DNA of 64,000 bases from Futiania mangrovi (GTDB taxonomy: Bacteria > Pseudomonadota > Alphaproteobacteria > Futianiales > Futianiaceae), in the NCBI RefSeq assembly GCF_024158125.1, contig NZ_JAMZFT010000002.1, positions 806,001 to 870,000 on the forward strand, read 5' to 3'. Positions 51,380 through 54,259 of this stretch are shown in pieces (positions within the stretch are counted from its first letter, which is position 1; the number at the start of each line of letters is the position of its first letter). Under the pieces are notes generated by a model. It saw nothing but the letters and a program-made list of their open reading frames with translations. It was not told the DNA's origin and did no database searches. The position numbers and the translations under genes were made by a program.

Positions 51380-51415
51380 CGGCGGGGCAGGAGGCTTGCT
51401 GCGAGTGACTTTCAT

Positions 51416-51464
51416 ATTTTGAACAGTTCTAAACTGTTGACTTCCCACCCACCCCCTGTTGTAA
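51416..51464 (+). promoter_or_regulatory. Irr-like iron-control box and promoter of the rubrerythrin operon
   Basis: TTTTGAACAGTTCTAAA at 51416-51432 differs from the ICE/Irr consensus TTTAGAA-N3-TTCTAAA in one base. It overlaps a perfect palindrome AACAGTTCTAAACTGTT at 51421-51437. TTGACT at 51436-51441 and TGTAAA at 51459-51464, spaced 17, make a good promoter. The box sits just upstream of and touching the -35, a place for a regulator to block polymerase or to activate it. The whole stretch is AT-rich within a GC-rich background. Confidence 0.75.
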
Positions 51465-51480
51465 ATTCCCCTCGAGCACT

Positions 51481-51643: not shown

Positions 51644-52063
51644 ATGGCTGGTCTGAAGGGTACGAAGACCGAGGAAAACCTGAAGGAAGCATTCTCGGGC
51701 GAGAGCCAGGCGAATCGCCGTTACCTCTACTTCGCGCAGAAGGCCGACATCGAGGGCTACAACGACGTGGCCACGGTGTTCCGCTCCACGGCGGAAGGCG
51801 AGACGGGCCATGCGCACGGCCACCTCGAGTTCCTCGAAGAAGTGGGCGATCCGGCGACGGGTGAGCCGATCGGCGACACGGCGGCGAACCTGAAGGCCGC
51901 GATTGCGGGCGAGACGCACGAGTACACCGACATGTACCCGGGCATGGCGCGCACCGCGCGCGAGGAAGGCTTCGACGAGATCGCCGACTGGTTCGAGACG
52001 CTGGCGAAGGCTGAGAAGAGCCACGCCGGCCGCTTCCAGAAGGCGCTCGACACGATGGGCTGA
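51644..52063 (+). CDS. rbr: Rubrerythrin (diiron domain only)
   Basis: Diiron peroxidase-type protein of 139 residues. The glutamates expected for two ExxH-type half-sites are visible: [16 protein letters not shown] near 19-34, [16 protein letters not shown] near 50-65, [12 protein letters not shown] near 88-99 and [11 protein letters not shown] near 121-131. The C-terminal rubredoxin domain of classical rubrerythrins is missing. Ribosome site AGGGAGAG. It heads an operon with a CCG-domain Fe-S protein and a DUF3501 protein, a recurring set; the Irr-type box upstream implies regulation by iron or haem status. Confidence 0.9.
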
Positions 52064-52229: not shown

Positions 52230-53573
52230 ATGCGCGAAGGTAGCCTGGACGCCCCGGTGCGCCATCCGATCGATTGGAACGACCCGGATTTCTACGACGA
52301 GGCCAAGCTCGACGAGGAACTGAGGCGCGTTTTCGACATCTGCCACGGCTGCCGGCGCTGCTTCAACCTGTGCGATTCCTTCCCGCGCCTGTTCGACCTG
52401 ATCGACGAAAGCGCGTCCGGCGAGCTGGACACGGTCGAGTCCAAGGATTTCAAGCCGGTCGTGGATGCCTGCACGCTCTGCGACATGTGCTTCATGGTGA
52501 AGTGCCCCTATGTGCCGCCGCACGAGTTCAACCTGGACTTCCCGCACCTGATGCTGCGCTACCGCGCGGTCGAGCACCGCAAGGGCCAGCGCGCGATGGG
52601 CGAGCGGGAACTGACCAAGACCGACCGCAACGGCAAGCTGGGCACGATGGTCTCCGGCCTCGCCAACTGGGCGTCGAGCGAGAAGAACACCCTCACCCGC
52701 CCCGTGATGGAAAAGACGCTGGGCGTGCACAAGGAAGCCGCCCTTCCGAAGTTCACCGGCAAGACGCTGGTTGCGCGCGCGAAGGCAAACCCGCCGCAGG
52801 TTGACGCCGCGGCCCCGGCGCACGGCCGCAAGGCGGTGATCTACGCCACCTGCTACGGCAATTACAATACGCCGGAGATTGGCGAGGCGGCGCTCAAGGT
52901 GCTGGCGAAGAACGGCGTCGCGTGCGAGGTCGTCTACCCGGAATGTTGCGGCATGCCGCAGATGGAGCAGGGCGACCTGCCCAAGGTGGCGCACAAGGCG
53001 AAGTCGGTGGCCGCGAACCTGAAGCCCTGGATCGAGAAGGGCTATGACGTCATCGCGCTCGTTCCCTCGTGCGCGCTGATGCTGAAGTTCGAGTGGCCGC
53101 TGATCGCCACCGACGACCCGGGCGTGAAGGCGCTGGCCGAAGCGACGTTCGACATCTCGGAATACATCGTCGACATCGCCAAGAAGGAAGGCCTGGCCGA
53201 GGGGCTGAAACCCCTGGACGGCGCGGTCTCCGTGCACATCGCCTGCCACGCGCGGGCGCAGAACATGGGCCAGAAGGGCGCCGAGCTTGCCAAGCTGATC
53301 CCCGAGACGAAGATCGGCGTGGTCGAGCGTTGCTCGGGCCACGGCGGCTCCTGGGGCATCATGAAGGACAATTTCGAGGTCGGCATGAAGGTTGGCAAGC
53401 CGGTCTTCCGCCAGATGAAGCAGAACGGCGACGCGAAATACATCGCGTCGGAGTGCCCGCTGGCGGGCCTGCACATCCGGCAGGGGATCGAGCGGTCGGG
53501 CGAGGGCGAGGTTGCGCCGGAGCTTGCGCCGCATCCGGTGGTGCTGCTGGCCAAGGCCTACGGGCTGGCCTGA
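52230..53573 (+). CDS. CCG-domain iron-sulfur protein (heterodisulfide reductase-related)
   Basis: Electron-transfer or disulfide-related protein of 447 residues. Two [4Fe-4S] sites are visible: CHGCRRCFNLC (about 38-48) and CTLCDMCFMVKCP (about 81-93). Two CCG-type domains follow: CYGNY with PECCGMPQ (about 205-245) and ACHARAQNMG with ERCSGHGG and SECPLAG, where the second CCG reads CSG. Start ATG 52230 follows AGCGAGGAA. The strict co-occurrence with rubrerythrin and DUF3501 suggests it feeds electrons to the rubrerythrin; this is inference. Confidence 0.87.
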   Translation: MREGSLDAPVRHPIDWNDPDFYDEAKLDEELRRVFDICHGCRRCFNLCDSFPRLFDLIDESASGELDTVESKDFKPVVDACTLCDMCFMVKCPYVPPHEFNLDFPHLMLRYRAVEHRKGQRAMGERELTKTDRNGKLGTMVSGLANWASSEKNTLTRPVMEKTLGVHKEAALPKFTGKTLVARAKANPPQVDAAAPAHGRKAVIYATCYGNYNTPEIGEAALKVLAKNGVACEVVYPECCGMPQMEQGDLPKVAHKAKSVAANLKPWIEKGYDVIALVPSCALMLKFEWPLIATDDPGVKALAEATFDISEYIVDIAKKEGLAEGLKPLDGAVSVHIACHARAQNMGQKGAELAKLIPETKIGVVERCSGHGGSWGIMKDNFEVGMKVGKPVFRQMKQNGDAKYIASECPLAGLHIRQGIERSGEGEVAPELAPHPVVLLAKAYGLA

Positions 53574-53668: not shown

Positions 53669-54259
53669 ATGGCCGCGAAGCAACAGATCACGCGCGACGA
53701 CATCATGCCCGTCGAGGAGTATGTGAAGGTCCGCAAGGAGATGCGCCAGAACCTGCTGGCCATCAAGAAGCCGCGCCGTATCGAGATCGGTCCGGTCGCC
53801 ACCTGCTATTTCGAATGCTACGAGACAATGCTCCACCAGATCCAGGAGATGCTCTACATCGAGAAGGGCGGGGAGGAGCAGATCGCCGACGAACTGTCGG
53901 CCTACAACCCGCTCGTGCCGAAGGGCCAGGAACTGGTCGCGACCGTGATGTTCGAGATCGACGACCCGATCCGCCGCAAGAACTTCCTCTCCCGCCTCGG
54001 CGGCGTCGAGGAGACGATGTTCCTGCAGTTCGCGGGCGAGACGGTGAAGGGCGTGCCGGAAGCCGACGTCGACCGCACCACGGCGGACGGCAAGGCGTCC
54101 TCGGTGCAGTTCATCCACTTCCCGTTCACGGCCGGGCAGATCGCGAAGTTCCGCGAGGCGGGCACGCAGGTGGTGCTGGGCTTCTCGCACCCCTCCTACT
54201 CGCACATGGCCGTGCTGTCGGAGGCGTCGCGTGCCGCGCTCGCGGAGGATTTCGCCTGA
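53669..54259 (+). CDS. DUF3501 family protein
   Basis: A 196-residue protein of unknown function, recurrently encoded after rubrerythrin and a CCG-domain protein. It contains the family motifs DDIMPVEEYVKVRKE, RRIEIGPVATCYFECYETM and FIHFPFTAGQIAKF. No signal peptide or membrane helix. Start ATG 53669 has a GGGAGAG ribosome site. Three bases from the convergent USP gene. Confidence 0.85.
   Translation: MAAKQQITRDDIMPVEEYVKVRKEMRQNLLAIKKPRRIEIGPVATCYFECYETMLHQIQEMLYIEKGGEEQIADELSAYNPLVPKGQELVATVMFEIDDPIRRKNFLSRLGGVEETMFLQFAGETVKGVPEADVDRTTADGKASSVQFIHFPFTAGQIAKFREAGTQVVLGFSHPSYSHMAVLSEASRAALAEDFA

Follow-up and report, generated by a model that had tools for sequence, protein, structure and literature searches.

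A predicted Irr box at the promoter of an aerobic-type rubrerythrin operon in Futiania mangrovi

Irr is a haem- and iron-sensing regulator of the Fur family. It releases the DNA on binding haem, and it represses or activates transcription depending on where its box is placed (PMC7762939). In Bradyrhizobium, haem-bound Irr generates peroxide, activates it and is oxidised for degradation (PMC4700492). In Rhodobacter sphaeroides, the ccpA transcript starts ~40 nt downstream of an Irr box, and when iron is limiting an irr mutant expresses it at a ~1.8-fold higher level (PMC3413700). The genes considered here form the aerobic-type RBR/RFO/DUF3501 cluster, a published group (PMC5114695); a text search of that paper finds neither Irr nor promoters or regulation mentioned. 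Peroxidase activity has been demonstrated for a single-domain relative, ferriperoxin, a type said to be widespread in aerobes (PMC3317640). An earlier note on this DNA had called the function of the gene set unsettled; in view of the published cluster and the demonstrated peroxidase this is too strong for the set as a whole, and it stands for the DUF3501 protein. A literature search found no paper that joins irr, rubrerythrin and fabA, nor one that connects an Irr box with this cluster at rbr; the main Irr-box survey (Rodionov et al. 2006) was outside the scope of that search and may list rbr.

Here we report the analysis of a stretch of 64,000 nt from Futiania mangrovi (NZ_JAMZFT010000002.1:806,001-870,000), referred to below as the window, whose positions are used throughout. 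It carries in order and on one strand the genes rbr (51644-52063, forward strand), encoding a single-domain ‘aerobic-type’ rubrerythrin of 139 amino acids (PF02915), rfo (CCG/RFO; 52230-53573, forward strand), encoding a probable Fe-S oxidoreductase (PF02754), and a gene for a DUF3501 protein of 196 amino acids (53669-54259, forward strand; PF12007). At a distance of 227 bp upstream of the rbr start codon lies a predicted Irr box (ICE) on the forward strand at 51417-51433, TTTTGAACAGTTCTAAA (TTTTGAA-CAG-TTCTAAA), which differs from the ICE consensus TTTAGAANNNTTCTAAA (TTTAGAA-N3-TTCTAAA) by T for A at position 4, that is at one of the 14 fixed positions. The -35 hexamer TTGACT (51437-51442, forward strand) begins 3 bp downstream of the box and is followed by a weak, probable -10 hexamer, TGTAAA (51460-51465, forward strand; 17-bp spacer; 9 of 12 consensus matches). 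Because a strict consensus promoter scan called no promoter at rbr, this -10 and a transcription start near 51471 are offered as putative placements. The 170-nt leader yields no Rfam match for a conserved RNA element and folds no better than shuffled sequence (z -1.0).

Overlapping the box by 12 bases is a second, perfect 7-3-7 inverted repeat, AACAGTTCTAAACTGTT (AACAGTT-CTA-AACTGTT; 51422-51438, no strand assigned). The earlier note had placed the whole site at 51416-51437; the site exists, and the positions given for it are one base off. Its description of a 17-base Irr/ICE-type site with one mismatch, joined to a perfect 7-3-7 repeat, proves accurate. The repeat had further been said to touch the -35; instead it overlaps it, the last two bases of the repeat being the first two of TTGACT.

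Pattern searches for the ICE, with the reversed pattern as control in the genome-wide scans, single this site out. It is the only match in the window with up to three mismatches, where shuffles expect 0.03, and the only match with up to two mismatches in the genome (3,391,920 bases; GC content 70%), for which a composition model expects 0.004 sites at one mismatch or fewer and 0.14 at two or fewer. We regard 51417-51433 as an Irr box with very high probability. At up to three mismatches the genome holds 10 sites against 17 in the reversed control, and since this count is not above that of the control, a large Irr regulon finds no support in the scan. The next plausible genomic site (G000:C1:571047-571063; L117, L130), with three mismatches, lies before a gene for an AhpC-type peroxiredoxin, whose orthologues carry a perfect Irr box in two genomes (G033 and G014) and one with two mismatches in another (G065); this gene is likely a second Irr target.

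The putative Irr box holds up in every available sequence test, and it is conserved at the rbr promoter across the Alphaproteobacteria. In a set of 110 regions upstream of genes for close rubrerythrin orthologues, ~70% of the promoters carry the box, 18 of them without any mismatch. When the search is extended over 573 kb of rbr loci, it yields 87 sites with at most two mismatches, of which 78 are located in the region upstream of rbr; with the reversed pattern as control there are 5 matches in total across the same 573 kb. The geometry is conserved together with the sequence: in 67 of 81 distinct contexts (up to three mismatches) the end of the box lies 3 (39 contexts), 4 (16) or 5 (12) bases from TTGAC. 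The box profile displays weak symmetric extensions, with T and A two to three bases outside each half, and the -35 is near-consensus in the box-bearing promoters and remains so in several loci without a box. A clear box is missing from 14 of the 90 loci in which irr is linked to rbr. Individual loci depart from the common arrangement: three of them (L010, L072 and L099) have two perfect or near-perfect Irr boxes, of which one precedes the rbr -35 and the other follows it close to the -10. In two Magnetovibrio loci (L097 and L102) a terminator-like element, composed of a GC-rich hairpin and a T run, lies between irr and rbr at the place where the box is expected.

The genome encodes three Fur-family proteins, including an Irr (G000:C2:330998-331435) that scores 211.8 bits against a cut-off of 150 for the IrrA equivalog NF045678. 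This protein has an HXH-type histidine run (motif DHHHFFFE) and no cysteine, hence no Cys-Pro haem motif. Its gene is divergent from fabA and lies on the same contig as the rbr operon at a distance of ~526 kb. In relatives the two are usually neighbours, the present genome being the exception: irr adjoins rbr in 90 of the 110 loci, often with fabA beyond irr, and of the 30 genomes in which Irr and an orthologous rubrerythrin occur together, 28 have irr as the immediate upstream neighbour of rbr. The pairing extends from Rhodospirillales-type genomes to marine Pelagibacter. Among genomes with an rbr orthologue, the box occurs in 26 of 30 that bear Irr and in 0 of 3 that lack it (P=0.006). The predicted box travelled with the rbr operon away from irr and persisted, and its retention at rbr in F. 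mangrovi, so far from irr, argues that it serves rbr in trans and is not a part of the irr gene. As to autoregulation of irr in this genome, the region between irr and fabA offers no match better than one with 5 mismatches; four other loci (L065, L068, L069 and L091) have an Irr-like box with 2 mismatches between fabA and irr, which suggests autoregulation of irr there. In one more of the 30 genomes (G016; L126, G016:C93:6600-9000) a single gene for a Prx5-like peroxiredoxin stands between irr and rbr with its own one-mismatch Irr box and a TTGACA.

From the box, its conservation and fixed position, the irr gene and its adjacency to rbr in relatives, we infer binding by Irr, the sign of the control and the signal. 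One Irr dimer would occupy the 17-bp palindrome against the upstream edge of the -35. Haem-free Irr, accumulating under shortage of iron or haem, would repress the rbr-rfo-DUF3501 operon; haem, together with oxidative damage to Irr, would free the box, and the peroxide-scavenging rubrerythrin would be produced when the cell has iron at its disposal and faces peroxide. We consider it probable that 51417-51433 is the Irr operator of rbr-rfo-DUF3501 with haem-free Irr acting as the repressor. The link that the earlier note drew between the rubrerythrin/CCG (RFO)/DUF3501 set and iron or haem status is borne out, as a prediction, by the conserved box, the irr-rbr adjacency in relatives and the Irr encoded here.

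The place immediately before the -35 suits an activator as well, and the alternative that survives best keeps the same Irr box and has Irr activate under iron limitation by contacting RNA polymerase upstream of the -35. The place of the box, tightly held 3-5 bp from the -35, is what would be expected for such a contact, although fixed spacing may equally reflect the common ancestry of one promoter. Irr is reported to act commonly as a direct activator (PMC7762939). Moreover, rbr of Ca. Pelagibacter ubique rises 1.57-fold on iron limitation (PMC2864753), and the rbr promoter in a strain of this species other than that of the expression study has a box of like geometry, so that an opposite sign of control is possible. 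We nevertheless hold activation to be unlikely, if well short of negligible, and repression, given binding, to be quite probable. Repression is favoured because the -35 hexamer nearly matches the consensus and persists as such at several loci that lack the box, so that nothing about the promoter gives the impression of dependence on an activator, and because the products of the operon are iron-rich (di-iron and probable Fe-S proteins), which for activation in low iron would run contrary to the usual iron-saving logic. It is favoured also because ccpA of R. sphaeroides, with its similar geometry, shows a modest rise in low iron when Irr is absent (PMC3413700), and because the next plausible box in the genome, that before the AhpC-type peroxiredoxin gene, apparently lies between the -35 and the -10.

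Improbable, by comparison with activation, is a dual control in which Fur and Irr act from adjoining sites, with a Fur-like box that is good in some relatives and has decayed in F. mangrovi. The motif concerned, TTGCGAA-N3-TTCGCAA, also precedes an iron-transporter permease gene and a cation-efflux gene in this genome (genes named from their translated sequences) and on that account is probably a Fur box. In 12 of 80 loci it occurs with at most four mismatches 18-20 bp upstream of the Irr box, abutting it, and almost never at other offsets. At eight sphingomonad loci (L050, L058, L063, L075, L076, L085, L088 and L093) a Fur-like box replaces the Irr box at the rbr promoter, and in none of the eight genomes does any protein come near the IrrA cut-off. 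At the rbr promoter of the window, however, the best Fur-box match is a marginal trace with 6 mismatches, CTGCGAGTGACTTTCAT (51399-51415, forward strand), a score reached by ~0.7% of window positions, and three offsets were examined. The Fur-like box found where Irr is missing constitutes a natural experiment, in which regulators of opposite iron response would have been swapped at one promoter.

The earlier note had also proposed that the site with its overlapping palindromes could be read by two regulators or by a single one in two registers. In favour of this, the second repeat is free of mismatches, its centre lies 5 bp from that of the box, and one relative (L006) likewise has a perfect second repeat. 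Its arms, however, are assembled from the box and the promoter: the left arm consists of the AA of the left half of the box, the spacer CAG and TT, and the right arm of the AA of the right half, an Irr half-site, followed by CTG and the TT of the -35. When a box stands 3 bp from TTGAC, 4 of the 7 pairs of such a repeat match automatically, leaving free only the spacer and the triplet after the box; the chance from composition that the three free pairs match is ~2.4%. The commonest spacer in relatives is TTA, against CAG here, and the frequent CTG or CTA after the box is due in part to the weak symmetric extensions outside the halves. Of the 39 promoters in which the box has this spacing, 2 possess a perfect second repeat, against 1.28 in shuffles (P=0.38), and the mean match of the repeat lies below the shuffled mean. 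The genome holds no other copy of AACAGTT-N3-AACTGTT within two mismatches, and with 10 perfect 7-3-7 palindromes in the window such a repeat alone is unremarkable. With its conservation at chance level and no recurrence in the genome, the second palindrome was rejected as a separate operator; the lack of excess conservation and of a second genomic copy marks it as a coincidence of box and promoter, and a reading by two regulators or in two registers is accordingly very improbable. Least probable of all is that 51417-51433 is a chance resemblance in an AT-rich promoter stretch without operator function, since, for all that the site has one mismatch, the match is rare in a genome of 70% GC and is conserved across the class.

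If the predicted control by Irr holds, rubrerythrin/RFO/DUF3501 would gain a named candidate regulator across a whole class, and with it a set of conditions under which to test the operon, namely low iron, haem and peroxide. The pairing of irr with rbr suggests that peroxide defence is a core, and perhaps ancestral, task of Irr. More tentatively, and as a possibility that we rate below even, Irr may in many Alphaproteobacteria outside the Rhizobiales be primarily a local haem/peroxide regulator of peroxidases, the broad iron regulon of the rhizobia being a later expansion, and its regulon in F. mangrovi may amount to the rbr operon and one peroxiredoxin. The peroxidases meant, were this so, would be the rubrerythrin next door and AhpC-type or Prx5-type peroxiredoxins elsewhere.

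The older literature describes mbfA, a target of Irr, as rubrerythrin-like. Irr boxes as such are known, and RBR/RFO/DUF3501 is a named cluster (PMC5114695); the present analysis adds the pairing of irr with rbr across the class, the constant geometry, the retention of the predicted box after rbr and irr became separated, and the Fur-like box that takes its place in genomes without Irr. That Fur-like box of the sphingomonads resembles the Irr box of F. mangrovi in the size of its palindrome and in its location at the rbr promoter, although its iron logic would be reversed. The cluster itself comprises the same three genes as the operon in the window (PMC5114695). The product of rbr is, like ferriperoxin (Fpx) of Hydrogenobacter thermophilus, a single-domain rubrerythrin-like protein without a rubredoxin domain, the latter organism belonging to a different phylum (PMC3317640). 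The closest described counterparts of the predicted operator are the Irr boxes, or ICEs, of Rhizobiales and Rhodobacterales (mbfA, bfr and ccpA), which have in common with it the 7-3-7 consensus, a position at the promoter, the presence of Irr in the genome and targets concerned with iron or peroxide. The start of R. sphaeroides ccpA ~40 nt after its box (PMC3413700) reproduces the geometry predicted at rbr. The Irr of those orders acts on mbfA and governs a large regulon, whereas in F. mangrovi there is one clear box, and it stands before an operon for a single-domain, aerobic-type rubrerythrin.
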